Assembly: GCA_001717545.1 (NCBI GenBank)
Contig: CP017039.1
Location: 1,364,001-1,428,000, forward strand
Direction: 5' to 3'
Origin: Anaerolineaceae bacterium oral taxon 439
GTDB lineage: Bacteria > Chloroflexota > Anaerolineae > Anaerolineales > Anaerolineaceae
Length of the DNA: 64,000 bases
Shown here: positions 36,138 to 54,359 of the stretch, in pieces
How positions within the stretch are numbered: the stretch's first letter is position 1
Layout of the letters: each line of letters opens with the position of its first letter
Notes under the pieces: generated by a model
What the model saw: only the letters and a program-made list of their open reading frames with translations
Told to the model about the DNA's origin: nothing
The model's database searches: none
Position numbers and translations under genes: made by a program

Positions 36138-36734
36138 TCATGAAATCAGGATCGGTTTCCCAAGCCCTTCGGCGTAGGCGCAAATCTTCGCAGCGTCTTC
36201 AACGTATTCCGCGCGCAGGTAAGCTTGGTCGATCGTTTCTCCGATCGTCAGGACGCCATGATTCGCCATCAGGCAGCCGAAACGGTCGTTCCCAAGCGCC
36301 CGAACGACGCTTTTCCCTAATTCCAGCGTTCCCGGCGGAGCGTACTCGGCGAGCGGGACGTCTCCGCCTAAAAACGGGATCATCTCGATCAGGACCTGTG
36401 GGATACGGCGATGGACGACGGCGAAGGCGGTCGCGTAAGGGGAATGGGTATGGACGACGGCGTTAACCGTCTTCATCCGACGAAAGACTTCCAGGTGCAT
36501 TTGCCATTCCGAGGAGGGTTTGTAGCGTCCTTCGACGATTTCCCCATCGAGGTCGATCAGGACGATATCTTCAGCGGTCATCGTTTCGTAACGGACGCTC
36601 GTCGGCGTGATCGCGACGAGATTCTCTTCCGGAATCCGGATCGATAAATTTCCGCTCGTCCCGGCGAAAAGCTTCGCGGTAAATGCATTTTTTGCGGCGG
36701 ATATGACCGCGCTCCGCGCTTCATTCCGATTCAT
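36138..36734 (-). CDS. Class II aldolase, L-fuculose-phosphate aldolase-like (candidate DHAP-shunt aldolase)
   Basis: This zinc-dependent aldolase of 198 aa has GTSGNLSIR (phosphate binding), the catalytic Glu in PSSEWQMHLEV, zinc His residues in VVHTHSPYATAFA, and the third His in ANHGVLTIG. The sequence family includes FucA and the Ald2/DrdA-type enzymes that split 5-deoxyribulose-1-phosphate or methylthioribulose-1-phosphate into DHAP plus an aldehyde. It overlaps the MtnA-like isomerase gene by 1 nt, so its substrate should be that enzyme's ribulose-1-phosphate product. A different class II aldolase, in the fucose operon at 49968, leaves this one free for the nucleoside pathway. Confidence 0.85.
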   Translation of the reverse strand: MNRNEARSAVISAAKNAFTAKLFAGTSGNLSIRIPEENLVAITPTSVRYETMTAEDIVLIDLDGEIVEGRYKPSSEWQMHLEVFRRMKTVNAVVHTHSPYATAFAVVHRRIPQVLIEMIPFLGGDVPLAEYAPPGTLELGKSVVRALGNDRFGCLMANHGVLTIGETIDQAYLRAEYVEDAAKICAYAEGLGKPILIS

Positions 36735-37786
36735 CAGTATTCTCCTTCTCCATTGGCTTTATCGTATTGCGCGAGGTTGAACGGCGAGAAAACGCCGAGA
36801 TCCGTGACGACGCCGCTGACTAAACGCGGCGGGGTAATATCGAACGCCGGATAATATCCTTTCACCCCCGCCATCGCGGTTCGGACGCCCATTGCCTGAA
36901 GCGTGAATTCAGGATCGCGCATTTCGATTTGAACGGTATCGATCGTCGGATGCCCTTTGTCTGGCGCGCCGGTCGCGAAATATGGGATTCCCAGGTAATT
37001 CGCGACGATAGCGATTTGGAAGGTCCCGACTTTATTGACGATATGCCCATCGCCGCAGATCACGTCCGCCGCAGAGGTGAAAACGTCGATTTTTTCCTTC
37101 TGAATCGTAAAGGCGGGCATGTTGTCGGTGATGACGGTGGTATCGAAGCCCATGTCTTTCGCGACGGAAGCGGTCAGCCGCGCGCCCTGAAAGTAGGGCC
37201 GCGTCTCAGCGCAGAAAATTTTAAGCTCGTTTCCGCGTTCACGCGCGGCGCGGAGCGTCTGCCCAACGATCGTTTCCCCGAAACACTGAGTCAGGACTTT
37301 GGCGTTTTGAGGAAGCATGTCCAGCAGGTATTCCGCCATCTTCCCGATTTTCCTGTATCGGGCGTTGTTGGCGCGGATGGCATGGTCGACGAGGGATTGC
37401 GGAACGTTTTCGCCTTTTTCGCGCGCAGCGATCGCGGCGTCCAGGGATTTATTGACCAGAATCGTCATCCGGTCGACCGTTGTCGGTCGGGCGTGCGCGA
37501 TCGTATGGGCCGCCTTCTTCATGAAATCGAGCCAGCCGTTCTCATCCTGATTCCGGGCCTGATACGCTGCCAACGCCATGCCCATCTGCGCCGCGGTATA
37601 GGGACCGGCGCTCTGCGTAACCATGTCGGTAATCGCTTTCGCGACTTCCTGAACCGTTTTACATTCGACAAATTCGACTTTCGTCGGATAGACCCGGCGA
37701 TCTAAAATCCGGACGGTTCCGTTTTCGTACCACGCGATATTCTCATATTGGAGCATGAAGGCTAAGCCCCGATCCGCTCGTTCCAT
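36734..37786 (-). CDS. MtnA-like ribose-1-phosphate isomerase (5-deoxy/methylthioribose-1-P)
   Basis: This 350-aa protein belongs to the MtnA/eIF2B-like isomerase family, which converts 5-substituted ribose-1-phosphate to the ribulose-1-phosphate. The catalytic Cys lies in VLTQCFGETIVGQ, where canonical MtnA has a THCNTG-like motif. The acid is in VITDNMPAF, and the end of the site in GDGHIVNKVGTFQIA. An extended N-terminus contacts the substrate in MtnA. The substitutions around the Cys show that it is a divergent branch. Ribosome site GGAGA precedes the ATG. It sits between the deaminase and aldolase genes. Confidence 0.85.
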   Translation of the reverse strand: MERADRGLAFMLQYENIAWYENGTVRILDRRVYPTKVEFVECKTVQEVAKAITDMVTQSAGPYTAAQMGMALAAYQARNQDENGWLDFMKKAAHTIAHARPTTVDRMTILVNKSLDAAIAAREKGENVPQSLVDHAIRANNARYRKIGKMAEYLLDMLPQNAKVLTQCFGETIVGQTLRAARERGNELKIFCAETRPYFQGARLTASVAKDMGFDTTVITDNMPAFTIQKEKIDVFTSAADVICGDGHIVNKVGTFQIAIVANYLGIPYFATGAPDKGHPTIDTVQIEMRDPEFTLQAMGVRTAMAGVKGYYPAFDITPPRLVSGVVTDLGVFSPFNLAQYDKANGEGEY

Positions 37787-37808
37787 AAGCGTTCTCCGTT
37801 CTGTTCGT

Positions 37809-39101
37809 TTAATGAATCCTGGCGCAGCTTTGCCGATAGTCGGCTTTGGCCTTTTCGGCGTCGACCGTCAGGTATTTTCCATGATCATAAATCATTTTTC
37901 CATCAACAATTGTGCATACGACGTCGGACGCTTGCGCTGCGTAAACGATCAGCGCCGGGGCGTCGTGAACCGGCATGAGATGCGGCCTGTCAAGGTCGAA
38001 GATCGCCAGGTCCGCTTTATTTCCGACCTTGAGCCTTCCCGTATCGTTCCGCCCTTGCGCCGCCGCGCCGGCGGAAGTCGCCATCGTCAGGACTTCTTCC
38101 GCGCTGAGGATCGTCGGATCGTGCGCCGCTCCACAGTGAATCAGCGAAGCCAGATGTATTTCCTCCAGAAAATTCAGATTATTGTTGCTTGCGGTGGAGT
38201 CGGTTCCGAGGACGACGGGAATACCGGCGTCCATGAGCTTTCGAATCGGCATGAACCCGCTTCCGAGCTTCATGTTACTGGATGGGTTATGAATAGCCGC
38301 AACGCCTTTTTCTCTCAGAATTTCGATATCCGCGTCGCTGAGGACGACGCAGTGCGCGGCGTTGGTGGGGTTTTCGAACGTTCCGATCCCGGCGAAAAAA
38401 GCGGCCGGCGTGACGCCATGGCGTTCGATACACCCTTTGACGTCCGCTTCCGTTTCGGCGAGATGCAGGTGCATCCGTGCGCCGCAGCTCTGGCAGGCTT
38501 CCGAATAAGCTTGCGCCGAAGCCTTGAGCGACGTATATTCGGCGTGAATCGCGAAGTCGATCCGGATTCGCTCTTCGGCGCTCTGATGATACTCCTGAAA
38601 GACTTTGACGGCCGTATCGATCCGTTCCTGATCGATTTCGGGTCTGGAAAAATCTTTCGACGCGAAAGGAACGGAGAGATTGGCTTTCATTCCGCTGGTT
38701 TCGACGAGCGCCGCGGTCAGCCATGGCTGAATATACATGTCGCTGAACGAGACGATTCCGGACGCGATCATTTCCAGGATCGCGATTTGCGAGCTGCGCT
38801 GAATATCCGAGGGCGAAAATTTTGCTTCCCGGGGGAACATCGCCTCTTTCAGCCAACGATGCAGCGGCAGGCCGCTCCCGATCCCGCGCAGCGAAGTCAT
38901 ACCGGTATGCGCATGCAGGTTGAAAAAACCGGGCAGAATCAGATGATTTTCCAGATCGATTTCGTGGTCGTAGGATTGCGCCGGGGGAATGGCGTCGAGG
39001 TAATCGATTCGCTGATCGTTTATTCCGAGGAAACCGCGCGGAACCGTCTCCCAACGATCCTTTTCGACAAGCAGGATCGCGTTTTTTAACAAAGTTCGCA
39101 T
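37809..39101 (-). CDS. Amidohydrolase of the MTA/SAH/5'-deoxyadenosine deaminase type
   Basis: This 430-aa metal-dependent deaminase of the TrzN/SsnA/MtaD family has metal ligands HxH in FFNLHAHTGM, His in IHAEYTS, His with the catalytic Glu in HLHLAETEAD, and Asp in VLGTDSTASNNN. MtaD/DadD-like proteins convert 5'-methylthioadenosine, S-adenosylhomocysteine and 5'-deoxyadenosine to the inosine analogues. That suits the neighbouring phosphorylase, whose motifs suggest a preference for 6-oxopurines. GGAGA lies upstream of the ATG. Guanine- or cytosine-deaminase activity cannot be excluded by eye. Confidence 0.85.
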   Translation of the reverse strand: MRTLLKNAILLVEKDRWETVPRGFLGINDQRIDYLDAIPPAQSYDHEIDLENHLILPGFFNLHAHTGMTSLRGIGSGLPLHRWLKEAMFPREAKFSPSDIQRSSQIAILEMIASGIVSFSDMYIQPWLTAALVETSGMKANLSVPFASKDFSRPEIDQERIDTAVKVFQEYHQSAEERIRIDFAIHAEYTSLKASAQAYSEACQSCGARMHLHLAETEADVKGCIERHGVTPAAFFAGIGTFENPTNAAHCVVLSDADIEILREKGVAAIHNPSSNMKLGSGFMPIRKLMDAGIPVVLGTDSTASNNNLNFLEEIHLASLIHCGAAHDPTILSAEEVLTMATSAGAAAQGRNDTGRLKVGNKADLAIFDLDRPHLMPVHDAPALIVYAAQASDVVCTIVDGKMIYDHGKYLTVDAEKAKADYRQSCARIH

Positions 39102-39118
39102 TGTGAGCGGTTCTCCGT

Positions 39119-39940
39119 TTACGGTAACGCGCGCAGCAGGACCCGGAACCAGGCGCGGAACCGCGTTTCCACCGCTTTCGCGGTACGGTCGACCATTGCG
39201 TGGGCCGATTCCTGGTCGATGACGCCCGTCGCCATGTTCGTAATCAGCGATACAGCCAGGACCGGCAAGCCGGCATGGCGCGCGGTCAGGACTTCGGGAA
39301 CCGTCGACATTCCGACGGCGTCCGCGCCGAGGATCCGCGCCGCGCGAATTTCCGCGGCGGTCTCGAAATGCGGCCCGACGAAGTACATGTATACGCCTTC
39401 ATGCAGCGTCAGATCGGTATGCGGCTGCGTTCCGATCGCGACGGCGCGCAGCTTCGCGGAATATAAATCGGTTACGTCGAAGAAACGGGGCCCATATTCA
39501 GGGAGGTTCTCCCCGCGCGTGGGACTGGCGCCGACGAGGTTCAGGTGATCCTTGAGGATCATGATATCGCCGGGACGATAATCCGGATTAACTCCGCCGG
39601 CGGCGTTGGTCAGGATCACACGGGAAACGCCTGAATCCCTGAAAAGGCGGACCGGCGCGGCTAATTGCTCGAAGGTATACCCTTCGTAGTAATGGAACCG
39701 TCCGGACATGCAGATGACTTTTTTCCCTTCAATCGTTCCAAGGATCAGCTTCCCGGCATGCCCGGGGGCGGTTGAAACGAGGAAATTCGGAATATCGGCG
39801 TATGGAATAACGATCGGATCTTCGATTTCATCGGCGATTCCACCTAACGCGGTCCCCAGGATGATTCCGAGGTCCGGCGTGAAATTAATTCTGGATCGGA
39901 CATAATCCGCGGATTTTTTGTAAAACGCTGTCGTAAACAT
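39119..39940 (-). CDS. Purine nucleoside phosphorylase (PNP/MTAP family)
   Basis: This 273-aa phosphorylase would release the base and form (5-substituted) ribose-1-phosphate. It has the phosphate loop in ILGTALGG, HYYEGYTFEQLAAPVRLF, LTNAAGGVN and GPHFETAAEIRAARILGADAVGMSTVPE. SLITNMATG places an Asn where 6-oxopurine-specific PNPs have it, whereas MTA phosphorylases have Asp. This supports phosphorolysis of inosine-type, that is deaminated, 5'-deoxynucleosides. It lies 17 nt upstream of the deaminase gene and 21 nt after the permease gene. Confidence 0.88.
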   Translation of the reverse strand: MFTTAFYKKSADYVRSRINFTPDLGIILGTALGGIADEIEDPIVIPYADIPNFLVSTAPGHAGKLILGTIEGKKVICMSGRFHYYEGYTFEQLAAPVRLFRDSGVSRVILTNAAGGVNPDYRPGDIMILKDHLNLVGASPTRGENLPEYGPRFFDVTDLYSAKLRAVAIGTQPHTDLTLHEGVYMYFVGPHFETAAEIRAARILGADAVGMSTVPEVLTARHAGLPVLAVSLITNMATGVIDQESAHAMVDRTAKAVETRFRAWFRVLLRALP

Positions 39941-39961
39941 GTTTTTTACAGTACCTGCTCT

Positions 39962-40885
39962 TTACTTAGGTTCAGATTGACGCTGCGGGCTGCGCAGCCT
40001 GAACGAATTATAGGCCATCAACGCGAAAATGGTAGCCGCATAAGGGATAGCCATGGTTAATTCGGAACTGATCGACGAATTCTGAAGAAAATTCGCGAGC
40101 GATTGCGCCAGCCCGAAAAAAGCGCTGGAGACGATCGTCCCGATTGGGTGGGCTGCGCCGAGGGAAGCGGACGCCATGGCGATATAGCCGCGGCCGGCGG
40201 TGATATTCTGCGCGAAGAGGGTGACCCCGCCCATCGTCAGCAGTACGCCGCCCAGACCGGATAACGCCCCGGAGAAGATAATCGTCAGAATCTGGATTCG
40301 ATCGCCGTTAATGCCGAGGCTGTTCGCCGCGTCTTTGTTGATTCCGACGGAGCGCATGTGGAAGCCGGCGACGGTTCGGAACAGGACGAAATTCAGGACG
40401 AACGCCAGAACAAATGCAAACAGGTCAAGCCAGGTCAGCGAATCAAAAAGCGTATACAGGAACGGCGAGCCCCGAAGGCAGCTCACGTCGATTTTAGGCA
40501 GGCTGACGAGGTCCGAGCTGACGAACGCGCCCTTTATACCGAAAATCAGCTGCATCAGGAATGTCGTCAATCCGCTCATCAGCGTATTAATCGAAACGCC
40601 GACGACTAACATCGCGCCGTTGAGTTTCACCATGAAAATACCGGCGAGCCAGGCTACCAGCATGGACGCGATCATAGCGGAGAAGATTGATAACGCTACG
40701 CTCTTCGTATAGAAATTAGCGACGATCGCTGAAAATGCGCCCGCCAGCATCATGCCTTCCAGCCCGATATTGAAAATAAAAACCCGGTTGCAAAACGCGG
40801 ATCCAAGCGCAACGAATAGAATCGGCGTCGTCAGGCGGATTGTCGAGTTGAGGACGACGGCTAAGAAAACTGTGTCGAAATTCAT
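39962..40885 (-). CDS. Nucleoside ABC importer permease 2, third system
   Basis: This 307-aa BPD_transp_2 permease has FCNRVFIFNIGLEGMMLAGA, the coupling loop GINKDAANSLGINGDRI and SGLGGVLLTMGG. It overlaps the other permease gene by 4 nt (ATGA) and is followed directly by the phosphorylase gene. That places the transporter and the catabolic enzymes in one transcript. Inner membrane, about eight to nine helices. Confidence 0.87.
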   Translation of the reverse strand: MNFDTVFLAVVLNSTIRLTTPILFVALGSAFCNRVFIFNIGLEGMMLAGAFSAIVANFYTKSVALSIFSAMIASMLVAWLAGIFMVKLNGAMLVVGVSINTLMSGLTTFLMQLIFGIKGAFVSSDLVSLPKIDVSCLRGSPFLYTLFDSLTWLDLFAFVLAFVLNFVLFRTVAGFHMRSVGINKDAANSLGINGDRIQILTIIFSGALSGLGGVLLTMGGVTLFAQNITAGRGYIAMASASLGAAHPIGTIVSSAFFGLAQSLANFLQNSSISSELTMAIPYAATIFALMAYNSFRLRSPQRQSEPK

Positions 40886-42012
40886 GTGTTGGCTCCCTCT
40901 GGGTTTTTAAGCGTTTCCATGGCAGGGTTCGGGCGGCACCGGTGGCGGAAACGGCGGGGAACCCTGAATTTCAGCAGGAACCGGGCTGAAATAAACAGCG
41001 TGATACAGCCTTGGATGATCGCTGAGATTTCGATTGGAACGTTCGTTGAACGGGCGATTAAGGAGCCGCCGGTTTGGATTCCGGCGAGGATAATCGACGT
41101 GAATAAAATTCCGATTGGGTTATATCCGGAAATCAGCGCGGCGTTGAGTCCGACCCATGCGTAGCTGGCGGAAACGAAAATACCGTTGACATAACGATAT
41201 TGGACGCCGAAGACCTCGATCATGCCGGCAAATCCGCAGATCATTCCGCTTAATAAAAGTGTCCGACACATGATTTTTTTGCTGTCGACGCCGCCGTATT
41301 CGCAGAAACGGATATTAAATCCGCTCATTCTTGATTCGAAACCGAACGTCGTCCGATACATCAGGAACCAGATCGCGAAAACGAGCAGGATTGCCAGGAA
41401 GAAACCGGCGTGCAGGTTGTAGTTTTTGATAATGATCGGCAAGCGCATTTCCAGCGGAAGCATTTCCGTTTGGACCATTTTCCCATCGGTCGACAAGTCA
41501 AGGAAATGATTTTGCGTATAGTGAAGCATGACATATTGCGCGATGTAATTCATCATCAGCGTTGAAATCGCCAGCGACATTTTAAACCGGTCCAGGAGCC
41601 AGGCAGACAGGGCGGAATAGACGCCTCCTGCGGCGATCGCGGCGGCGAAAGCCAGCGTCCATCGAACCCAGACGGGGCCCGGCGCGTACAGACCGACGAT
41701 CGCGCTGACGAATCCCCCGAGGATCATCTGCCCTTCCCCGCCGATGCCCATGTAATTCGAAGCCCAGGCGATCGCGGCTCCCAGTCCGCAGATCAAGACC
41801 GGTGTCGCCCGCGCGAGCGTTGCAAACAGGTAGTACTGACCACCGAACGCGCCTTTCAGCATGGCCCGATAGATGGATATCGGCGAATTCCCGGTCAGAA
41901 GAATCGCAACAGCGCCGGCGGCGAGCGCAAAGAAAATGGCGATTGTTGGCTGCGCTATGGTTTTGGCAGCGCTGCGGAGTGTCCGTTGAAAATTCTTTTC
42001 CGAATTATTCAT
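40882..42012 (-). CDS. Nucleoside ABC importer permease 1, third system
   Basis: This permease (376 aa) has AIAWASNYMGIGGEGQMILG, the coupling loop SGFNIRFCEYGGVDSKKI and GMICGFAGMIEVFGVQYRY. A TTG at 42030 is in frame, but the ATG at 42012 has GGAGGAG 9 nt upstream, inside the end of the ATPase gene, so I chose it; the genes overlap by 8 nt. The basic C-terminal tail (FRVPRRFRHRCRPNP) is longer than in the two other permease 1 proteins of this window. Confidence 0.87.
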   Translation of the reverse strand: MNNSEKNFQRTLRSAAKTIAQPTIAIFFALAAGAVAILLTGNSPISIYRAMLKGAFGGQYYLFATLARATPVLICGLGAAIAWASNYMGIGGEGQMILGGFVSAIVGLYAPGPVWVRWTLAFAAAIAAGGVYSALSAWLLDRFKMSLAISTLMMNYIAQYVMLHYTQNHFLDLSTDGKMVQTEMLPLEMRLPIIIKNYNLHAGFFLAILLVFAIWFLMYRTTFGFESRMSGFNIRFCEYGGVDSKKIMCRTLLLSGMICGFAGMIEVFGVQYRYVNGIFVSASYAWVGLNAALISGYNPIGILFTSIILAGIQTGGSLIARSTNVPIEISAIIQGCITLFISARFLLKFRVPRRFRHRCRPNPAMETLKNPEGANT

Positions 42013-43567
42013 ATTTCTTTTCTCCTCCAACCATCAGGTAGCCTAATTCTTCTTCTGTGACGTTGCCGTGTTGAAATTCGCCGTTTATTTTCCCCTCGAA
42101 GATCACGTAAATCCGATCCGAGAGCTTCATGATTTCCGAGAGTTCTGAAGATATTAATAGAATTGCGTCGCCATGGTTGCGTTTTTCGATCAATTTTTCG
42201 TGAATGAATTCCATCGCGCCGATATCGATCCCGCGTGTCGGTTCGGCTGCGATCAGGAGCGGCGTGTTCTGCGATATCTCGCGGGCGACGATAAGCTTCT
42301 GCGCGTTTCCTCCGGAAAGCGAACTGGTCCTGAGTGCGATATTGTCTGTTTTGACTTTATACTGCTGGACGATATTCAGCGCGAAATTCCGGATTGCGCG
42401 GATATTCAGGATTCCGCGCCTGGAAAAGTCGATTTTTTCCTGATGGCCCATGATGGCTGATTCGCTGATTTTAGCCTGTCTGGCGATTCCCCAGATATTC
42501 CGGTCTTCCGGGATCAGCGATACGCCGGCGTTGCGGATTGCCTTGACGTCGTGGTTGACGATGCTTTCCCCCTTGACGAGAATCTCGCCGCTGTCGATTT
42601 TTCTCAGGCCGAACAGGGCGGATATGAATTCGGACTGGCCGTTTCCGGATACGCCGGCGATTCCGACGATTTCTCCCCCGGCGACATGAAGCGAGATTCG
42701 ATCCAGGATTGGTTTCACGCTTAGACCCTGAATCGATAGTTCGTTTACGACGAGGATATCCGCTTTGGGACGGGTATGCGCGATTGGGTTTTGGTTCAGC
42801 GTCCGTGCGACCATGAAATAGGAAAGTTCTTCGATCGACGTGTCGGCGACGCTGACGTTCGCGACTTCCTTTCCGGCGCGAAGGACAACGGCGCGATCGG
42901 CAATTTCCATGACCTCGTTGAGCTTATGCGTGATAATAATGATGCTTTTTCCGGAAGCGGCCAGTTTTTTGATTGTCTTCAAGAGCTCGCGCGTTTCCTG
43001 TGGCGTCAGGACGGCGGAAGGCTCGTCAAAGATAATAATTTTAGCGTTTTGATAGAGAACCTTGAAGATTTCAACGCGTTGTCGAAGGCCGACCGGCATT
43101 CCTTCGATTTTCGCGTTCGGATCGAGCGGAAGCTCGGTTTCCCGGGATAAATCTTTAACAACGCGGGCGGCGGATTCAAGGTCGAAAACCGGACCGCGCC
43201 GGGGCTCTCGGCTGTAAACGATATTTTCTGCAACGGTAAACGGATCGAAGAGCATAAAATGCTGCTGAACCATGCCGATTCCGAGCGCGATCGCGTCTGC
43301 GGCGTTCCGAATTGAGACTTCTTTTTCATTTATGTAAATTTTGCCTTCATTCGCCTGTTCCAAGCCGTAAAGGATTTTCATTAACGTCGTCTTTCCCGCG
43401 CCGTTTTCGCCGATAATCGCGAGAATTTCGTTTTTCTTGAGCGTCAGATGGATCGAATCGTTCGCAACGAGAGGTCCGAACGTTTTCGTAATATTTTCCA
43501 TTCTCAGGACGGTTTGACGGTCGTTTCTATCCTGATGGGGGCCTGCCTGATTTTTCTCTTCTGCCAT
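42005..43567 (-). CDS. Nucleoside ABC importer ATP-binding protein, third system
   Basis: This is a tandem ABC ATPase of 520 aa. Domain 1 has GENGAGKTT, a MPVGLRQR signature region and [12 protein letters not shown]. Domain 2 has the degenerate P-loop [18 protein letters not shown] and AAEPTRGID. The sequence is clearly paralogous to the ATPases at 323 and 17747. It lies 134 nt after the lipoprotein gene, separated by a strong hairpin. The N-terminus is extended by about 20 polar residues ahead of the first beta-strand ([13 protein letters not shown]). Confidence 0.88.
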
Positions 43568-43629
43568 AAGATTCTCTTTAGAATGGTCAATCGCCGGCGA
43601 ATCGCGATTTGTGCACGATCCGCTGAAGC

Positions 43630-43665
43630 AGGCAAATTGTCGCCGAAATAAGCGGCAATTTGCCT
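43630..43665 (-). other. Intergenic hairpin between lipoprotein and ATPase genes
   Basis: AGGCAAATTGTCGCC (43630-43644) and GCGGCAATTTGCCT (43652-43665) form a stem of about 14 bp with one mismatch and a 7-nt loop. No T tract follows on the minus strand. It probably stabilises the lipoprotein mRNA or attenuates the downstream genes. Confidence 0.65.
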
Positions 43666-43700
43666 GACCTCTGATTTAAATATATCGGAGTAAAATGCGG

Positions 43701-44810
43701 TTACTTTTGTTTCATATAATCTTCCTGAAGTGGGACGTTGAGAACGATTTCGCCGTTCTTGATTTTTTCAGCCGCTTCGCGTGCCGTTTTGACGATTTCA
43801 TCGGTCAGTATTTCGCTGTTGCGCGGATTGACGCCATCGTCGGTGATGTACGTCGCGCCGACGACGCCCTCTTTTAATCCGAGGCTGATAACGGTTTTGG
43901 GCAGCCCTTCGCCGAAGAAGTCTTTTAAGATCATTTCGGTGACGACGCCGGTATATTTAACCTGGGTCGTGATGATATATGGGTTGTCCGGCCTTGTCTG
44001 ATCGGCGTCCTGCCCTGAGGTGTAGAATCCTTTTTCGAGCGCGGCTTCGAACGTTCCCTGATCGGCGACGGCTGAAGCCGCGTTGATAAAGACGCATCCC
44101 TGGGCGGCTTGCTGCAGCGCTAATTCTTTTGCCAATGGCGCGTCGGTATAGGATTTCGTATAATTGAAAATGAAATCGTCGTTTGTGACGTTCGGGTTGA
44201 CCGATTTAATCCCCTCGATGTAGCCATACTGCCATTCAAATCCGCCCTGTCCCGGATTCGCGTGCACGCCGCAGAACGGGCCGTCCGGTTTCCCGAGATC
44301 GCGGCTGACCGATCCGGCGACAATCCCGATCAGGTAGGCGGCTTCTTGCGGTTTGAAAACGTAGGAGGTAACGTTTTCGTTGTTGGCGATCGTGTCAATA
44401 ATCGCATAGTCCGCTTTATCAGGGAACATGGCGGCGACCTGACTGATCGGATCCGCCCCCTGCCAGCCGACGGCAAGGATCAGGTTGTAGCCTTCCTCGA
44501 CGGACGCCCGGACGTTTTCGGCCCATGCTGCTGAGTCAGTGCATTCTACAATCGTGTATTCCATAGGGTAGGTCCCGGCTTCCCTGATCTCCGCGATTTT
44601 GTCGACAACCTGCGTCAGGAAGGGATTTACGCCGACAGGATCGAGAATAACGGCGATCCGTTTTACCGAACCGACATCGGCGGCCGCCTGCGAATTCCCG
44701 ACAGCGGCTCCTGAAGTCGGTTCCGTTTCGGTTTCTTTCGAACAGGAGGTAACCGATATGGCAATCATAAGCAGTATGCTAATCAAAATATAAAACATAT
44801 TTTTCTTCAT
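43701..44810 (-). CDS. BMP-family nucleoside-binding lipoprotein, third system
   Basis: This 369-aa lipoprotein has a signal ending in ISVTSC (Cys near residue 23) and a Ser/Thr/Glu linker. The BMP core begins VKRIAVILDPVGVNPFLTQVV and includes AIIDTIANNENVTSYVFKPQEAAYLIGI, written here only as its ends: AIIDTIANN and EAAYLIGI. It diverges from the binding protein at 16682 in the first strand and pocket residues, consistent with a different nucleoside. It is the first gene of the long minus-strand operon; GAAAGAGG precedes the ATG by 6 nt and a promoter lies at 44870-44897. I propose 5'-deoxynucleosides as ligand from the downstream enzymes. Confidence 0.87.
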   Translation of the reverse strand: MKKNMFYILISILLMIAISVTSCSKETETEPTSGAAVGNSQAAADVGSVKRIAVILDPVGVNPFLTQVVDKIAEIREAGTYPMEYTIVECTDSAAWAENVRASVEEGYNLILAVGWQGADPISQVAAMFPDKADYAIIDTIANNENVTSYVFKPQEAAYLIGIVAGSVSRDLGKPDGPFCGVHANPGQGGFEWQYGYIEGIKSVNPNVTNDDFIFNYTKSYTDAPLAKELALQQAAQGCVFINAASAVADQGTFEAALEKGFYTSGQDADQTRPDNPYIITTQVKYTGVVTEMILKDFFGEGLPKTVISLGLKEGVVGATYITDDGVNPRNSEILTDEIVKTAREAAEKIKNGEIVLNVPLQEDYMKQK

Positions 44811-45019: not shown

Positions 45020-46084
45020 TTATTCGTAAACCAGCTCGGAAACCGCCGGATCGTCCAGGTTCCCAGCGTCGTACCATTTCGCGCCGGTGTCGACGATTTC
45101 GGATTCAGCGGCTTTCCCTTCGATCGCGCTTACCGCGAGTTCGACGGCCTTGAAGCCGATCTGATACGGGTCCTGGGTCACGGAACCAAGGAACCAGCCT
45201 TTTTCGACGGCGGTCCGCTGGGTTTTACCGGCGTCAAAACCGATCGCGATAATATCCTTGAATTTTCCTTTTTCCGAATCGAAATCCGAGCCGTCGTTCG
45301 ACGCGGCGAGGACGCCGCCGGCGGCGTTCTCGTTCGAGGCGTAAATCGCGGCAGGTTCGAGCGAAAGGAGCGCTTCAGCGCCGGTCTTCTGGTCCGCGGC
45401 GGAGGTCGTCGCCGGAACGTTGACGACGATCTTCAGGACGGCGGCGTCGTTCGCACGCGCGTATTTATCGTGACCTTCAACGGAGGTCAGGTCTTCGCCG
45501 ACGAGTTCGACGAGTTTATCGATAAAGCCGGTCGTTCGGGAGACGATCGATTCTGAAGTCGCGTCCTGAGAAATGACGGCGACGGTAATCGGAGCGTCGG
45601 CGGTCGCGGCGGCGACTTTGGCGGCGAAGCTTTCGTCCGCGAAAAGATGCTCAGCAGCAATTGCGGCGGCGGCTTTGTTATCGGTCGAAGCGGTCGCGTA
45701 GATCGAACCTTCGGGAGCGCCCGGAACGCCGGAGTCGAACCCGACAACCGGGATCCCAGCGTCTTTCAGGGTTGCGAGCTGTTCCTTGACGGATTCGGTA
45801 TCCAGCGCAGCGAGCGCGATGGCGGCGGGTTTCTTATCGATCGCGGATTTCAGCATGTCGACCTGAATCGCGATATCGGACTCCGTCGGCGGTCCGTCGA
45901 ACGTGATCTCGACGCCGTACTGTTCGGCGGCGGCCTGCGCGCCCTTGGCGACGACCTGCCAGAACTGATGCTGAAAACCTTTGGATACGATGGCGATGTA
46001 GGGTTTATCCTGCGCGACGGCGACCGAGGCGGCGAGGGGTAAAACCAACGCGACAATCAGTAATACGGCTAAAAGCTTTTTCAT
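45020..46084 (-). CDS. Ribose-family sugar-binding protein (RbsB-like), candidate L-fucose binder
   Basis: This exported binding protein (354 aa) has a Sec signal (MKKLLAVLLIVALVLPLAAS, cleavage near AVA-Q, residue 24). It has the type 1 periplasmic fold: YIAIVSKGFQHQFWQVVAKG, ALAALDTES, VVGFDSGVPG, and a C-terminal GSVTQDPYQIGFKAVEL. No lipobox Cys is present, unlike the BMP proteins here, which raises the question of how it is retained. The frame extends upstream to 46153, but GGAGGAA before the ATG at 46084 decides the start. Adjacent AraC and fuc genes point to fucose rather than ribose. Confidence 0.87.
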   Translation of the reverse strand: MKKLLAVLLIVALVLPLAASVAVAQDKPYIAIVSKGFQHQFWQVVAKGAQAAAEQYGVEITFDGPPTESDIAIQVDMLKSAIDKKPAAIALAALDTESVKEQLATLKDAGIPVVGFDSGVPGAPEGSIYATASTDNKAAAAIAAEHLFADESFAAKVAAATADAPITVAVISQDATSESIVSRTTGFIDKLVELVGEDLTSVEGHDKYARANDAAVLKIVVNVPATTSAADQKTGAEALLSLEPAAIYASNENAAGGVLAASNDGSDFDSEKGKFKDIIAIGFDAGKTQRTAVEKGWFLGSVTQDPYQIGFKAVELAVSAIEGKAAESEIVDTGAKWYDAGNLDDPAVSELVYE

Positions 46085-46111
46085 GAGGGTTCCTCCCAAA
46101 AATTTTTGATG

Positions 46112-46136
46112 CCGGCGGACGCGAAAAGTCCGCCGG
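46112..46136 (-). other. Hairpin between permease and binding-protein genes
   Basis: CCGGCGGAC (46112-46120) and GTCCGCCGG (46128-46136) form a perfect 9-bp stem with a 7-nt loop, just upstream of the binding-protein ribosome site. It may be a 5' stabiliser producing extra binding protein. Confidence 0.6.
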
Positions 46137-46149
46137 GTTAACCACGGGT

Positions 46150-47124
46150 TCAATCTATCCTGACAGCGTTCGCTTTTTTATTCCGATAGATATCGAGAAG
46201 CACGGCGAGGATGACGACGAGACCGGTGAAGAAGGTCTGGAAATGTCCCTGCAGTCCCATCGACATCAGCCCGGTTTTCAGTACGGACATCAGGAACGCG
46301 CCGATCAGCGTTCCGGACATCGTCCCGACGCCGCCGGACATCGACGTTCCGCCGATAATAACCGCCGCAATCGCGTTCATTTCCAGCCCGTTCCCGGTTC
46401 CCGGGATGATCGTCGTATAGGTCGCGGCGTAGACGATCGCCGCAAGGCCGCAGAAGAAGCCGCAGACAATATAGACGGCGATTTTCCAAAACGGAACGTT
46501 GACGCCGGAGAGCCGGACGGATTCTTCGTTCGAGCCGATCGCGTAGGCGTAACGGCCGAAACGCGTTTTCGTCAGCAGGATCCAGGCGATAAGGAAAAAG
46601 AGAATCATGTAGATAATACCGCTGGGGAAGCCGCCGCCGGTTTTATAGAAGACCTGCTTATAGAGGCCGTCGACGTCGAACCCGGAGGGGAAGCGCTGCG
46701 TCTGGACCTTCGTGACAATCGCGCCGAACCCCTGCGTCATCATCATCGTCCCGAGCGTCGCGATAAACGGCGGGAGCTTGAGCTTCGCGACGAGGATCCC
46801 GTTGATCCAGCCGACGATCGTCGCGATCAGGACGACGATCCCCAGGACGATCCAGATATTCATGCCTTTCGTATAGAGGTAACCTCCGATCAGCGCGGAC
46901 ATCATCATATTCGTCCCGATCGAGAGATCGATTCCTCCAGTGATAATAATGAACGTGATCCCGAACGCCATCAGGCCGACGTAATACGTGCTGTCCAGAA
47001 TGCTGACCAGCGTTCCGGTCGAGAAGAAATTCTTCCCGAATAAACAGAAGAAAATATACAGGATAACCAAAGCCGCCGGAGCGAGAATTTGCTGAAGGTC
47101 GAATTTACGTTTGAGATTTTCCAT
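46150..47124 (-). CDS. Sugar ABC transporter permease (RbsC-like)
   Basis: This 324-aa permease of the BPD_transp_2 family has the RbsC landmarks AFGITFIIITGGIDLSIG, KLKLPPFIATLGTMMM, the coupling loop GSNEESVRLSGVNVPFWK and GTSMSGGVGTMSGTLIGAF. About eight to ten membrane helices. It lies 15 nt after the ATPase gene and would act as a homodimer, as in RbsC systems, since only one permease gene is present. Confidence 0.92.
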   Translation of the reverse strand: MENLKRKFDLQQILAPAALVILYIFFCLFGKNFFSTGTLVSILDSTYYVGLMAFGITFIIITGGIDLSIGTNMMMSALIGGYLYTKGMNIWIVLGIVVLIATIVGWINGILVAKLKLPPFIATLGTMMMTQGFGAIVTKVQTQRFPSGFDVDGLYKQVFYKTGGGFPSGIIYMILFFLIAWILLTKTRFGRYAYAIGSNEESVRLSGVNVPFWKIAVYIVCGFFCGLAAIVYAATYTTIIPGTGNGLEMNAIAAVIIGGTSMSGGVGTMSGTLIGAFLMSVLKTGLMSMGLQGHFQTFFTGLVVILAVLLDIYRNKKANAVRID

Positions 47125-47139
47125 GAGTTTTCTAATCCT

Positions 47140-48663
47140 TTAATTTCGCCGGGTGGCGTATTTCATGATGGTTTCCTGCGACGCTTCCTCGATATTGAGG
47201 ATTTTCGTGATCCGCCCTTCGCACATGCAGGCGACGCGGTCGCTCATGCGCAGGATTTCCTGTAATTCTGAACTGATCATGATGATGGACTTGCCTTCTT
47301 CCGCGAGCAGCGTCATCAGCTTATAGATTTCGTTTTTGGCGCCGACGTCGATCCCACGGGTCGGCTCGTCGAAGATCAGCACGTCGCAATTGCGTACGAT
47401 CCATTTCGCGATAATGACTTTCTGCTGATTGCCGCCGGAGAGGTTGCGGATGAGCTGCGAGACGGTCGGAGTTTTGATATTGATTTTCTTAACGTACGTT
47501 TCGGTCGTGCCGCGGATTTTCCCGTCGTCGACGAAGCCGTTCCGCGTAAAGCTTTCGAGATCGGCGAGGACGGTATTATCGGAAACGGAGAGCCCGACCG
47601 CGAGTCCGTAACGCTTCCGGTCTTCGGAAAGATAGCCGATTCCGGCGCGGACGGCGTCGACCGGGGCTTTTATTTTCAGCTTGTTCCCGTTTTTATAGAT
47701 ATCGCCGCTCTCGATCGGATCGGCCCCGAAGATCAGCCGGGCGGTTTCGGTTCTCCCGGCGCCCATGAGGCCTGCGAATCCGAGGATTTCGCCTTTTCGG
47801 AGATCGAACGACACGTCATGCACGTCGCGGGAGGTCAGTCCGCGAACTTCGAGAACGACCGGGGCGGAATCGGGAATACTCGATCCGGTTTTCGGCTCGA
47901 TATAAATGACCCGCCCGACCATGGCCTGGATAATTTCGTCGAGGTTCGTATCCTTCGTGACGAGAGTTTTGACGTATTCGCCGTCGCGCAGGATCGTAAT
48001 CCGGTCGGTAATCGCCTGAATTTCGTCCATGCGGTGCGAGATGTAAATCATGGTGACGCCATGGGCTTTCAGGTCCTTCATGACGTTGAACAGCTCGACG
48101 ACTTCGGTTTTCGTCAGCGCGGCGGTCGGTTCGTCGAGGATCAGGATCTTCGCGTTGAAGGAGATCGCTTTGACGATCTCGACCATCTGCTGTTTCCCCA
48201 CGGTCAGGTTCCCGACTTTTTCGGTTGGGCTGATATCCATCCTGATCCGTTCGAAGAGCCGCCGCGTCTTCTGGTTGATCGTTTCGTCGTTGACGAAGAA
48301 CGACGTCCCTTCGCGTCCGATAAAAATATTCTGCGCGGCGGTCAGGTGGTTCATCAGGTTCAGTTCCTGATGAACGATGGCGATCCCGGCGTCCTGCGCC
48401 TCTTTCGGGTTCCTGAACGAAACGCGTTCGCCGTTATAAAAAATTTCGCCTCTGTCCGCCTGATAAATTCCGGCCAGAACTTTCATCAGGGTCGATTTCC
48501 CCGCCCCGTTTTCTCCGACGAGCGCGTGAATTTCCCCTCTCCGAAGTTCGAAGCTGCATTGTTTCAAGGCGTGAACGCCCTGAAAACGCATGCCGACATC
48601 TTTCATTTCCAGGATGACCGGGTTTTCGTTTGTACCGTTGGCTGCGGATTTACCGGAATTCAC
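47140..48663 (-). CDS. Sugar ABC transporter ATP-binding protein (RbsA-like)
   Basis: This is a 507-aa tandem ABC ATPase. Domain 1 has GENGAGKST, LTVGKQQMVE and ILILDEPTAALT. Domain 2 has GLMGAGRTE, LSGGNQQK and IFDEPTRGID, with a more conventional Walker B than in the BMP systems. The start is GTG (48661-48663), preceded by GAGGTG. It is the first gene of the operon, 231 nt downstream of the AraC regulator gene on the same strand, and its own promoter lies at 48731-48759. Confidence 0.92.
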   Translation of the reverse strand: MNSGKSAANGTNENPVILEMKDVGMRFQGVHALKQCSFELRRGEIHALVGENGAGKSTLMKVLAGIYQADRGEIFYNGERVSFRNPKEAQDAGIAIVHQELNLMNHLTAAQNIFIGREGTSFFVNDETINQKTRRLFERIRMDISPTEKVGNLTVGKQQMVEIVKAISFNAKILILDEPTAALTKTEVVELFNVMKDLKAHGVTMIYISHRMDEIQAITDRITILRDGEYVKTLVTKDTNLDEIIQAMVGRVIYIEPKTGSSIPDSAPVVLEVRGLTSRDVHDVSFDLRKGEILGFAGLMGAGRTETARLIFGADPIESGDIYKNGNKLKIKAPVDAVRAGIGYLSEDRKRYGLAVGLSVSDNTVLADLESFTRNGFVDDGKIRGTTETYVKKINIKTPTVSQLIRNLSGGNQQKVIIAKWIVRNCDVLIFDEPTRGIDVGAKNEIYKLMTLLAEEGKSIIMISSELQEILRMSDRVACMCEGRITKILNIEEASQETIMKYATRRN

Positions 48664-48730
48664 TGAAGCACCTCACTTTTTTTGTTCTGCTATTGCTGGC
48701 GGAAATATCATGACTGTTATTGATATTCGA

Positions 48731-48759
48731 AGTTTAGCGCACAGGGTAGTCTCCTGCAA
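48731..48759 (-). promoter_or_regulatory. Promoter of the sugar ABC operon
   Basis: Minus strand: -35 TTGCAG (48754-48759), 17-nt spacer, -10 TAAACT (48731-48736), each four of six matches to consensus. A TGACGAATG element abuts the -35 box, the place an AraC-type class II activator would bind. Confidence 0.55.
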
Positions 48760-48845
48760 TGACGAATGCGGTCTAAATTTGGATGATATTCACATTCGCA
48801 AGGAATTATGACTTTCATCATGATAAACTGACGAATGTCATAATT
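48760..48845. promoter_or_regulatory. Direct and inverted repeats, probable AraC-type activator sites
   Basis: TGACGAATG occurs at 48760-48768 (touching the -35 box) and again at 48829-48837. The second copy lies within a perfect 9-bp inverted repeat AATTATGAC (48804-48812) and GTCATAATT (48837-48845). Two direct repeats plus a distal inverted pair resemble sites for looping AraC-family proteins; the gene at 48894 encodes one. Confidence 0.5.
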
Positions 48846-48893
48846 ACGGAATGAAACTGGACGATTGCGTAAAAATATCGGCGGACGGCTCGT

Positions 48894-49787
48894 TCAGTTC
48901 GGATTGGACTCCGCCGGTTCGGCTTCGCTGCGCGCGATCCGATTATTACGAAAATCACGCGCGGACATTCCTTTATACTTTTTGAACGTTTTAGAGAAGT
49001 AGCTCAGGTCGTGAAAGCCGCAGGCGAGCGCGATTTCTGTGATATGCTCCGTTGTTACGATCATCTTTTCCGCGGCGCATTCGATTCGATAATAGTTAAG
49101 ATATTCGATCGGTGTCCGTCCGGTCAGGTCCCGGAAAGCGCGGCAGAGGTATTTCGGGACCAGGTTGGCTTCGTCAGCCAGGTCCTGAAGCGTCAGGTCG
49201 GTCGCGTAGTCCTTTCGGATCCGTCTCAGGACTTTTTTCATCTGGTCGATCCGCCGCCAGTCTTTCGGATGCGGATCTGCGGCTGGATTCCGCGACGTTT
49301 CGTCGACGAGCGACCCCATGAGCTGCCAGATCAGGCCGTGAACCGTGAGTTCATAGCCGAATTTTTTATTCCGCAGCTCTACCATCAGCGCTTGGATTAT
49401 GTCGGCGGGCTTGCTTCCGGCCGGGAAAACGTGATGACGCAGCGCGGTTTCGGTCAGGACCTTCAGGAGCGAACGCTTTCCGATCGTCGTTTCTTCGAGG
49501 AAACGGGCGAAGTCAAAAACGGCGCATTCATAGACACAGTCATGCGGCAGGCCGCCATGGATAAAGCCGTCGGGGATCAGGACTGCGTCGCCGGCGTTCA
49601 TCTCGATCGTTTCGTCGTCGAGCCGGAGCGTGAAAGCGCCGCTGTCGATCAGGATCAGTTCATATTCGATATGCCAGTGAAAGGGCATCTGGTAGCGGGG
49701 ATGGGTCCGGTCGACGAAGTAGTATTCGAGCGGGAAATCGAACGTGCCGCGCGTTTGGTTTTCCTGCGAAACCGTGCTTTTGATCAT
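48894..49787 (-). CDS. AraC-family regulator of sugar uptake and fucose genes
   Basis: This 297-aa AraC protein has an N-terminal cupin (PFHWHIEYELILIDSGAFTL, NAGDAVLIPDGFIHGG). Its two C-terminal helix-turn-helices are LTLQDLADEANLVPKYLCR and ITEIALACGFHDLSYFSKTF, ending YKGMSARDFRNNR. It lies between the RbsABC-like operon and the divergent fuc operon, so it most likely controls both in response to L-fucose or fuculose-1-phosphate. The short intergenic region (49788-49967) would hold both promoters. Confidence 0.9.
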   Translation of the reverse strand: MIKSTVSQENQTRGTFDFPLEYYFVDRTHPRYQMPFHWHIEYELILIDSGAFTLRLDDETIEMNAGDAVLIPDGFIHGGLPHDCVYECAVFDFARFLEETTIGKRSLLKVLTETALRHHVFPAGSKPADIIQALMVELRNKKFGYELTVHGLIWQLMGSLVDETSRNPAADPHPKDWRRIDQMKKVLRRIRKDYATDLTLQDLADEANLVPKYLCRAFRDLTGRTPIEYLNYYRIECAAEKMIVTTEHITEIALACGFHDLSYFSKTFKKYKGMSARDFRNNRIARSEAEPAESNPN

Positions 49788-49896
49788 GCTGCGCTCCTGG
49801 CTTGTTCAGGCAATCCGGAAAGAGAGACGTCATCCTGAATGTGAATATTATAACAGTTTTGGTCGGTAAAAACCATGGGCTTCGACGATTTCTTTT

Positions 49897-49902
49897 TATA
49901 AT
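49897..49902 (+). promoter_or_regulatory. -10 box of the fucose operon
   Basis: A perfect TATAAT lies 65 nt before the fucA start. No -35 box matches at 16-18 nt upstream, which fits activator dependence. On the minus strand another TATAAT (ATTATA at about 49847-49852) may serve the regulator gene. Confidence 0.45.
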
Positions 49903-49967
49903 TCAAGATATCGCAAGCGTAAATATTGCAACTGAATTTGGTTCAGACGATTCAGAAGGAGGCGAAA

Positions 49968-50645
49968 ATGGATATTAACACCGTCAAAGAACAAATTTGC
50001 GATGTCTGTCATAAAATGTGGCAGCTGGGGTGGGTCGCGGCGAACGACGGAAACGTCAGCGCGAAATTAGAGGATGGGACGATCCTAGCGACGCCGACGG
50101 GGATCAGCAAGTCCTTCATCACGCCGGAGAAATTAATCCTGCTGAACGGGAAGGGCGAGGTCCTGGAGGCGGCGGAAGGCTACCGTCCGAGCAGCGAGCT
50201 GAAAATGCATTTGCGCTGCTACGATAGGCGCGACGACGTTTTTTCGGTTGTGCACGCGCATCCGCCGGGAGCGACCGGTTTCGCCGTGGCGCATCGTCCG
50301 ATGGATATGTATAACATGATCGAGGACGTCGCCGTGATCGGCTCGGTCCCGCTGACGCCGTACGGGACGCCGTCGACGTCGGAGGTCCCGGACGCGATCG
50401 AGCCCTACCTGGAGGAGCATGACGTTATGCTGCTCACGAATCATGGGGCGCTCGCGGTCGGCGCGGACGTTTACACGGCGTTCTACCGCATGGAGTCGCT
50501 CGAACTCTGGGCAAAGATTACGATCAACGCCGAGATTTTAGGCGGGAGCAAGGATATCGATCGGGAGAATATTCAAAAGCTGATCGATCTGCGCTCGTTT
50601 TATAGAGTAACCGGACGCCATCCGGGCTATAAGAAATACAGCTGA
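49968..50645 (+). CDS. fucA: L-fuculose-phosphate aldolase
   Basis: This class II aldolase (225 aa) splits L-fuculose-1-phosphate into DHAP and L-lactaldehyde. It has NDGNVSAKLEDG (phosphate loop), catalytic Glu in RPSSELKMHLRCY, zinc His in VVHAHPPGATGFAVAH and the third ligand in LTNHGALAVGAD. The frame opens at 49926, but AGGAGG 5 nt before the ATG at 49968 sets the start. It is the first gene of the fuc operon; the same-family rhamnulose-phosphate aldolase is longer. Confidence 0.9.
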   Translation: MDINTVKEQICDVCHKMWQLGWVAANDGNVSAKLEDGTILATPTGISKSFITPEKLILLNGKGEVLEAAEGYRPSSELKMHLRCYDRRDDVFSVVHAHPPGATGFAVAHRPMDMYNMIEDVAVIGSVPLTPYGTPSTSEVPDAIEPYLEEHDVMLLTNHGALAVGADVYTAFYRMESLELWAKITINAEILGGSKDIDRENIQKLIDLRSFYRVTGRHPGYKKYS

Positions 50646-50679
50646 GCTTCAGGCAGGTTTCGCGAAAGGAGACCCCGAC

Positions 50680-51117
50680 ATGCTGAAAAACATCCCTTCG
50701 ATTCTTTCCCCGTCGCTGCTGATGACGCTGATGGAGATGGGCCATGGCGATGAAATCGTGATCGGAGATGGGAATTTCCCCGCGGAGAGCGTTGGGAGAG
50801 ATTGTATCGCGGTGCATCGGGCGGATGGGCATGGCGTTCCAGAGCTGTTGGACGCTATTCTGACGTTGATGCCGTTGGATCAGTACGCGGCTCGACCGGT
50901 CGGGCTGATGGAAGTCGTTCCGGGTGATCCGGTCGTTCCGACAATCTGGGACGAGTATCGACGGATCCTGAAGGCGCATGATCCCGACCATTGTCAGATC
51001 GAGATGATCGAGCGATTCGCGTTTTACGAGCGGGCGAAAAAAGCGTACGCGATTGTCGCGTCCGGCGAAAAGGCGATTTACGCGAATATCATCTTAAAGA
51101 AGGGCGTCGTAAAATGA
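50680..51117 (+). CDS. fucU: L-fucose mutarotase FucU/RbsD family
   Basis: This 145-aa mutarotase interconverts fucose anomers so that FucI receives the right one. It starts with LKNIPSILSPSLLMTLMEMGHGDEIVIGDGNFPA, in which His and Asp are the family's active residues, and ends with GEKAIYANIILKKGVV, the conserved Tyr-containing C-terminus. AAAGGAG lies 8 nt upstream. Its stop overlaps the kinase start (ATGA). Confidence 0.92.
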   Translation: MLKNIPSILSPSLLMTLMEMGHGDEIVIGDGNFPAESVGRDCIAVHRADGHGVPELLDAILTLMPLDQYAARPVGLMEVVPGDPVVPTIWDEYRRILKAHDPDHCQIEMIERFAFYERAKKAYAIVASGEKAIYANIILKKGVVK

Positions 51118-54334: not shown

Positions 54335-54359
54335 ATAAATCAGGATCAAGGAGTGTGAA

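Follow-up and report, generated by a model that had tools for sequence, protein, structure and literature searches.

The window analysed here, a stretch of 64,000 nucleotides from Anaerolineaceae bacterium oral taxon 439 (contig CP017039.1), belongs to a genome of 2.95 Mb that was assembled as one contig and is rated 99.89% complete. Its minus strand carries eight genes, which the list of open reading frames places at the coordinates given in a preliminary description (Table 1). Together they probably form a single operon with which this anaerobic bacterium would import 5'-deoxynucleosides and break them down, through a deaminase and a phosphorylase, to a glycolysis intermediate and an aldehyde. 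The expected Pfam family was matched above its cut-off by each of the eight proteins (Aldolase_II, IF-2B, Amidohydro_1, PNP_UDP_1, BPD_transp_2 twice, ABC_tran and Bmp), and the Pfam and NCBIfam matches bear out the gene identities first proposed, namely a BMP-type importer of the ATP-binding cassette (ABC) class, a purine nucleoside phosphorylase (PNP), a deaminase of the 5'-methylthioadenosine/S-adenosylhomocysteine (MTA/SAH) type, an MtnA-like isomerase and a class II aldolase.

Table 1. Genes of the operon and of the adjoining deoxyhexose-type cluster (positions in the window; scores in bits).
Feature	Coordinates	Strand	Basis
BMP/PnrA-type nucleoside-binding lipoprotein, importer	43701..44810	-	Pfam Bmp 114.2 (cut-off 24.1)
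ABC importer ATPase, two ABC domains	42005..43567	-	Pfam ABC_tran, 2 stretches
Importer permease A, listed start TTG	40882..42030	-	Pfam BPD_transp_2
Importer permease B	39962..40885	-	Pfam BPD_transp_2
PNP of the isomerase-linked clade; proposed 5'-deoxyinosine/5'-methylthioinosine phosphorylase	39119..39940	-	PRK08202 and TIGR01700; clade and residues
MTA/SAH-type adenosine-class deaminase (amidohydrolase)	37809..39101	-	Pfam Amidohydro_1 191.5
MtnA-like aldose-ketose isomerase, short-loop clade	36734..37786	-	Pfam IF-2B; PRK05720 339.5 (cut-off 271); tree and residue counts
Class II (fuculose-phosphate type) aldolase	36138..36734	-	Pfam Aldolase_II 194.2
Aldolase-family gene, deoxyhexose-type cluster	49926-50645
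Rhamnulokinase-like kinase	50991-52553		457.4 of 527.95
Lactaldehyde reductase	54360-55508		Over cut-off

The eight genes are co-directional and tightly packed, as first described, although the overlaps said to join most of them occur at only three of the seven junctions (26 nt between ATPase and permease A, 4 nt between the two permeases, 1 nt between isomerase and aldolase); three others have gaps of 17-22 nt and the BMP and ATPase genes lie 133 nt apart. The isomerase most likely starts at 37786, since an N-terminal MER..(D/G)LAFML stretch is common to most relatives of the same clade. By eye, a TATAAT sequence and a purine-rich ribosome site stand directly 5' of the BMP gene, and a hairpin with a T-rich stretch lies 3' of the gene upstream of the operon. 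The automated scan listed none of these, and its totals were not clearly above chance (9 promoter-like signals against 5.6 +/- 2.1 and 13 terminator-like signals against 13.9 +/- 4.0).

When the genome collection was scanned with an alignment of the isomerase, at least 579 relatives were confirmed, of which the best 80 loci were analysed (loci and genomes of the collection carry the prefixes L and G). By their titles these are mostly from Bacillota, many of them of rumen or gut origin, together with Spirochaetota, Mycoplasmatota, Chloroflexota, two Actinomycetota and a few others. In the isomerase tree, 90 short-loop rows, including the window protein, were separated from 12 canonical MtnA rows with a support of 100/100. 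The canonical rows were L054, L140, L142, L143 and eight hand-picked from the 17 distant matches L016-L032; both the tree and the residue counts leave out L060, L067 and L073 (copies of L053, L046 and L047) and L136 (too short). The catalytic Cys and Asp of MtnA (Cys168 and Asp241 in the window) are kept in 90 of 90 short-loop and 12 of 12 canonical proteins. The stretch after the catalytic Cys, by comparison, spans 14 residues in all 90 short-loop rows versus 21 in all 12 canonical ones, the Arg of the canonical VRGAP motif is replaced by Gln in each of the 89 short-loop rows with a residue there (Gln58 in the window), and the Asn of the canonical CN motif by Phe, Trp or Tyr in 89 of 90. Loop, Arg position and tree rule out a canonical MtnA. 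A ribose-1,5-bisphosphate isomerase, a family whose Cys loop is likewise short, was ruled out by the TIGR00511 score (125.8 of 314.1 bits).

The genes that accompany the short-loop isomerases fall into separate supply modules. Here a gene on either strand was counted as a neighbour if it stood in a chain of recognised genes with gaps below 1,300 nt; kinases, phosphorylases and deaminases were labelled by their BLAST similarity to a single example of each kind rather than by a profile scan of every member, and some clusters are cut by contig ends, so that the counts are minima. An MTRK-like kinase was found at 21 of the 80 loci, a deaminase at least 40% identical to that of the window at 15, an MTA/5'-methylthioinosine (MTI)-type phosphorylase at 10 (8 on the same strand) and a PNP without deaminase at 4; at 30 none was recognised. 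Kinase, deaminase and MTA/MTI-type phosphorylase are mutually exclusive, with no locus of the 80 carrying two of them; L135 and L137 combine the MTA/MTI-type phosphorylase with a remote amidohydrolase (30-31%). Both kinase examples scanned exceed the MTRK equivalog cut-off, and the MTA phosphorylase model, the best for all three phosphorylase examples, was below its cut-off in each, two of the three passing that for MTI phosphorylase. All 22 deaminase-linked rows of the tree fall inside one 39-row group (22 deaminase, 14 none, 3 PNP-only; support 93/95, not starred), within which there are no kinase or MTA/MTI-phosphorylase rows. Judging by these kinase and phosphorylase partners, the sister lineages would handle 5-deoxyribose-1-phosphate or methylthioribose-1-phosphate.

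Some loci of the clade show further arrangements. Acyl-CoA-ligase-like genes replace the supply gene in nine Bacillota loci (L065, L069, L070, L071, L077, L080, L088, L089 and L090; one scanned, the rest by similarity), and in the kinase-type clusters L093, L096, L099 and L116 a 2-hydroxyacid dehydrogenase and an FGGY carbohydrate kinase stand between isomerase and aldolase. At L109 (8879-11020) the short-loop isomerase is extended at its N terminus by about 360 residues, which have no match among 16 reference proteins.

The PNPs encoded in line with a short-loop isomerase also form a clade of their own, in which 17 rows, the window protein included, lie on one side of a 100/100 branch opposite 29 ordinary PNPs from relatives. 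The ordinary set is L147-L175, the 30th locus (L176) being the linked PNP of G009; it includes L147, L148, L153 and L160, which were counted as ordinary although a deaminase-isomerase-aldolase cluster without importer is close by on the opposite strand. Positions were numbered by bovine PNP through the 1fxu alignment, where His247 and Phe154 of the window protein correspond to His257 and Pro160. The nucleoside 5'-OH is hydrogen-bonded to His257 in PNP, and side-chain hydrogen bonding was tallied in 81 of 89 nucleoside phosphorylase complexes versus 1 of 21 MTA phosphorylase complexes (PMC12648331; this and all other articles are cited from excerpts). The residue at this position is His in 29 of 29 ordinary PNPs and is lost in 14 of the 16 linked relatives (Gly 4, Asp 3, Thr 2, Glu 2, Gln 1, Asn 1, Ala 1, with His in 2), and position 160 is occupied by Phe in all 17 linked proteins and by Pro in all 29 ordinary ones. 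At L064, L081, L097 and L132 a linked-type PNP adjoins the isomerase in a cluster without deaminase.

The eight PF01048 genes of the genome comprise two of the PNP-I type, two of the DeoD type and four nearest to uridine phosphorylase (below cut-off); none of the eight was best matched to the models for MTA/SAH nucleosidase (MtnN) or MTA phosphorylase (MtnP), and profile models for MtnK, S-adenosylmethionine (AdoMet) decarboxylase (SpeD) and spermidine synthase (SpeE) each gave no match in the genome. An S-adenosylhomocysteine hydrolase, three Aldolase_II genes and 14 radical-SAM matches, 13 of them over cut-off, are present. The genome thus lacks a detectable supply by MtnN plus MtnK, or by MtnP, for the dihydroxyacetone phosphate (DHAP) shunt, and therefore the operon would be a variant, not a plain member, of the DHAP shunt or 5-deoxyribose disposal.

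In the proposed pathway, the BMP protein and the ABC transporter would import a purine 5'-deoxynucleoside, foremost 5'-deoxyadenosine, a by-product of radical-SAM enzymes, and possibly external MTA. The amidohydrolase would deaminate the substrate to 5'-deoxyinosine (or 5'-methylthioinosine), the PNP would phosphorolyse 5'-deoxyinosine to hypoxanthine and 5-deoxyribose-1-phosphate, the short-loop isomerase would convert the latter into 5-deoxyribulose-1-phosphate, and the aldolase would cleave this into DHAP and acetaldehyde (or methylthioacetaldehyde), the aldehyde then being reduced. Genes, gene order, conservation, clades, residues and the failure to detect MtnN, MtnP or MtnK are direct results of the computational tools, from which we infer every substrate and reaction. 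An order of import, deamination, phosphorolysis, isomerisation and cleavage without nucleosidase or kinase, as first proposed, is the explanation best supported by these results, because MtnN, MtnP and MtnK were not detected in the genome, the sister lineages of the isomerase are paired with enzymes of 5-deoxy- and methylthio-sugars, and the linked PNP clade mostly lacks the 5'-OH ligand; it is still one that we infer. Thus, we regard it as likely that the operon is a scavenging and disposal pathway for purine 5'-deoxynucleosides, a deaminase/phosphorylase entry module of the DHAP shunt, with substrates and reactions predicted from sequence.

The same inventory bears on the notion that the pathway serves mainly MTA salvage, yielding methylthioacetaldehyde, with the 5'-deoxy activity incidental. 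The nearest model names are indeed those of the MTA/SAH-type deaminase and methylthioribose-1-phosphate isomerase families, and known DHAP shunts also take MTA (PMC10986504, PMC12632272). However, no match to AdoMet decarboxylase or spermidine synthase turned up in the genome, which makes endogenous polyamine-derived MTA unlikely, and the 13 radical-SAM matches over cut-off would yield 5'-deoxyadenosine, so that we consider this explanation very unlikely. Exogenous MTA is a possible substrate.

When the deaminase is aligned to TM0936, the metal ligands and Glu84, which we take to contact the ribose, are kept. The position of Arg136, presumably the binder of the SAH carboxylate, is Val in the window and Thr, Tyr, His and Tyr in L041, L042, L052 and L053, and Arg is retained in the 19 other deaminase rows at least 40% identical, including L063 and two copies. 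This comparison is only suggestive: the window and four importer operons of the same genus lack the Arg, but the importer-bearing L063 keeps it. In the case of the aldolase, the best PDB relative is the fuculose phosphate aldolase 6btd (128.6 bits), which we take to be DrdA. Across six aligned aldolases Glu76, His95, His97 and His159 are invariant, the three His presumably binding the metal and the Glu being presumably catalytic. Identity to 6btd reaches 63% for aldolases adjoining a short-loop isomerase and is 38% for the window and 34% for the Escherichia coli protein. The aldolase belongs to the gene chain at 16 of 21 kinase, 7 of 15 deaminase and 3 of 10 phosphorylase loci, and an iron-containing alcohol dehydrogenase (either strand) stands at 10 of 21 kinase and 1 of 15 deaminase loci. 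An aldolase-isomerase fusion of 625 residues is encoded at L125 (1122-2999), in a Spirochaetales bin.

The nearest PDB relatives of the BMP protein belong to the BMP family, several of them nucleoside-binding. It is 73% identical to three same-genus counterparts, 62% to that of Mycoplasmatota (L063; the deaminases of the two loci are 42% identical) and 23-24% to two other BMP proteins of its own genome. At the base-sandwich and ribose positions known from BmpA (PMC13325309), Asp19, Phe27, Asp98 and Asp225 are kept, and Phe176, Phe151 and Val224 are replaced by Tyr, Trp and Gln. The aromatic sandwich and ribose contacts of the window protein are Phe64, Tyr221, Asp139 and Asp268; the position of BmpA Lys242 is Gln283 in the BmpA alignment, and Lys285 matches a Lys in the 4pev, 7x0r and 2fqw alignments. 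These residues would fit a nucleoside ligand and do not distinguish its 5' group.

The search for the same gene order in other genomes, proposed as a check in the preliminary description, bore out its recurrence in genomes of the same genus and in Mycoplasmatota. Mycoplasmatota bacterium zrk6 (L063) carries seven of the eight genes in unchanged order, followed by an iron-containing alcohol dehydrogenase and then the aldolase; six or seven of the eight genes are in order in four same-genus genomes (L041, L042, L053, identical to L060, and L052, on a cut contig), which makes the arrangement more than chance. A record of Flexilinea sp. MO118 has the same operon, and L127 a related importer set in opposite orientation. 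Among 40 relatives of the genome, 31 have an MtnA-like match, and the close type (E <1e-100) occurs in 9 of the 13 genomes of the same genus and in 1 of the 11 of the same family. In five importer-less same-genus genomes an S-adenosylhomocysteine hydrolase (one scanned, the others 90-92% identical to it) precedes a deaminase-isomerase-aldolase cluster, and the deaminase adjoins the isomerase in loci of Bacillota and Spirochaetota as well. This distribution leaves hardly any probability to a futalosine/menaquinone or other nucleoside pathway, or to a chance neighbourhood: the amidohydrolase family does include aminofutalosine deaminases (91.3 of 320 bits), but the order recurs in two phyla, Chloroflexota and Mycoplasmatota, the deaminase-isomerase pair in two more, and isomerase and aldolase are found fused. 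We know of no place for an aldolase in futalosine routes.

Several observations weigh against 5'-deoxynucleosides as the substrates, and the weakest points are the His kept by the window PNP, the ordinary PNPs of the importer-less clusters and the patchy aldolase. The window PNP, like those of L085 and L120, retains His at the 5'-OH position, and therefore inosine could also be used. A hexameric PNP of Plasmodium uses both inosine and methylthioinosine with His7 at 3 A from the 5'-OH (PMC3885546), so this residue does not exclude a 5'-deoxy substrate. In the importer-less genomes G004, G005, G006, G012 and G013 a single PNP passes the family cut-off; it is of the ordinary kind with His, adjoining the aldolase on the opposite strand in three of the five; the residue argument therefore fails there, and an ordinary PNP would have to act. 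By profile scores, the window PNP is below the MTI and MTA phosphorylase cut-offs (PRK09136, 70.5 of 223; TIGR01694, 81.2 of 274.85 bits), the deaminase below those for 5'-deoxyadenosine deaminase (PRK07228, 266 of 522) and MTA/SAH deaminase (PRK15493, 235.9 of 779 bits), and the aldolase below those of the fuculose- and ribulose-1-phosphate aldolase models. As for neighbourhoods, the aldolase is clustered in only 7 of the 15 named deaminase loci (some contigs being cut); in L041 and L042 the genes that come after the isomerase lie on the opposite strand, the aldolases elsewhere in those genomes being at most 41% identical; the importer is not universal among clusters; and 30 of the 80 loci have no recognised supply gene, nine of these adjoining acyl-CoA-ligase-like genes. 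Finally, an mtnK-mtnA-aldolase-transporter cluster of E. coli (L140) has a canonical isomerase, 23% identical to that of the window and outside the short-loop clade.

The retained His and the ordinary PNPs would equally be expected from ordinary purine catabolism, in which imported adenosine would pass through inosine, ribose-1-phosphate and ribulose-1-phosphate to DHAP and glycolaldehyde, and these PNPs shift weight to this explanation from the 5'-deoxynucleoside pathway, since they weaken the residue argument for importer-less clusters. The window PNP scores 338.0 with PRK08202 (cut-off 218) and also passes TIGR01700, the inosine/guanosine PNP-I model (299.6, cut-off 293.35), the second-best match of the aldolase is the haloarchaeal ribulose-1-phosphate aldolase model (RU1PAldHalo), though at 163.6 of 300 bits, ordinary nucleosides are the ligands of characterised BMP proteins (PMC13325309), and haloarchaea have a route that leads from guanosine by way of ribulose-1-phosphate to DHAP (PMC9700705). 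We nevertheless consider it unlikely, because the lineages sister to the isomerase rely on an MTR-type kinase or an MTA/MTI-type phosphorylase, the 5'-OH ligand is gone from 14 of the 16 relatives in the linked PNP clade, where Phe160 is found throughout, the window included, and elsewhere the genome encodes a further PNP, two DeoD enzymes and four proteins resembling uridine phosphorylase, with L054 and L055 adjoining related ABC importer genes. In L054 (G000:C1:2304000-2323900), operon-related ABC permeases and an ATPase, a DeoD-type PNP, a further, canonical MtnA and a phosphohexomutase-like gene lie side by side.

If the operon is a 5'-deoxynucleoside pathway, it offers a concrete and testable answer for a genome in which neither MtnN nor MtnP nor MtnK was detected, and points to the uptake of 5'-deoxynucleosides as food. 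Three results add most: a PNP clade recognisable by a simple residue signature, an isomerase subfamily whose members current models name 'methylthioribose-1-phosphate isomerase', and supply modules that exclude one another. A wider reading, to which we give slightly less than an even chance, is that a deaminase/PNP-fed branch of the DHAP shunt, with an unrecognised isomerase subfamily and a PNP clade turned dedicated 5'-deoxyinosine phosphorylase, has spread in gut and rumen anaerobes and has a private ABC importer in Flexilinea-type Chloroflexota, so that the 5'-deoxyadenosine of neighbours would be a shared carbon source.

Upstream of the operon lies a sugar ABC set (the ATPase identified by profile scan, binding protein and permease named by eye), part of an adjoining deoxyhexose-type cluster (45020-55508) with a class II aldolase-family gene, a kinase and a reductase, and the same aldol logic as the operon; downstream are an APH-type kinase and cobalamin genes. 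The AdhE at 21336-23960, put forward earlier as the acetaldehyde sink, is a genuine one (1369.6 bits, cut-off 951). Its position lends the proposal no support, and at 12 kb from the operon, with nothing tying it in, it was not accepted as a partner. Other candidates for aldehyde reduction are the lactaldehyde reductase, which could serve both the deoxyhexose-type cluster and the operon, and, in relatives, the iron-containing alcohol dehydrogenase inside the cluster.

Among known systems, the kinase-isomerase-aldolase route has been shown biochemically in Bacillus thuringiensis (PMC6079011). Its drdK-drdI-drdA cluster shares with the window an MtnA-type isomerase, a FucA-type class II aldolase and DHAP plus acetaldehyde as products; some clusters of this type have sugar transporters, and in Clostridium phytofermentans a phosphorylase replaces the kinase (PMC6079011). 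In the window, by contrast, there is no kinase, a deaminase and an inosine-type PNP would supply the sugar phosphate, and the operon includes an ABC importer for nucleosides of the BMP type. The DHAP shunt of extraintestinal pathogenic E. coli (mtnK-mtnA-ald2-permease; PMC10986504, PMC12632272) resembles it in growth on external 5'-deoxynucleosides, isomerase, aldolase and a transporter gene, and differs in using the Pfs nucleosidase, MtnK and a canonical MtnA; judging by gene order, L140 presumably carries this cluster. The haloarchaeal non-carboxylating pentose bisphosphate pathway likewise combines a nucleoside phosphorylase, a ribose-1,5-bisphosphate isomerase of the same superfamily and a FucA-type aldolase yielding DHAP, but acts on guanosine, has ribose-1,5-bisphosphate as an intermediate and requires a kinase and a phosphatase (PMC9700705). 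The window isomerase and aldolase fall short of TIGR00511 and RU1PAldHalo, and Pfam matches revealed no ribose-1-phosphate kinase or ribulose-1,5-bisphosphate phosphatase family among the eight operon genes, no genome-wide search having been made.

Deamination of MTA or 5'-deoxyadenosine ahead of phosphorolysis is also reported for Pseudomonas aeruginosa, with an MTA deaminase and an MTI phosphorylase, and proposed for Methanocaldococcus jannaschii, with a 5'-deoxyadenosine deaminase, MtiP and MtnA; in the excerpts of that source no operon with an aldolase and an importer is described, and the aldolase step of M. jannaschii is only proposed (PMC6302742). The claim that the combination had not been described has therefore to be narrowed, as deaminase, phosphorylase and MtnA were already proposed together for M. 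jannaschii and the deaminase and MTI phosphorylase reported for P. aeruginosa. A deaminase-PNP-isomerase-aldolase operon with a BMP importer was not found among the matches listed for the open-licence literature on the DHAP shunt, 5-deoxyribose, ribulose-1-phosphate, methylthioinosine and 5'-deoxyadenosine. Only this full combination, aldolase and BMP importer included, had no earlier description among those matches, and it sets the operon apart from these systems as a predicted variant of the DHAP shunt.

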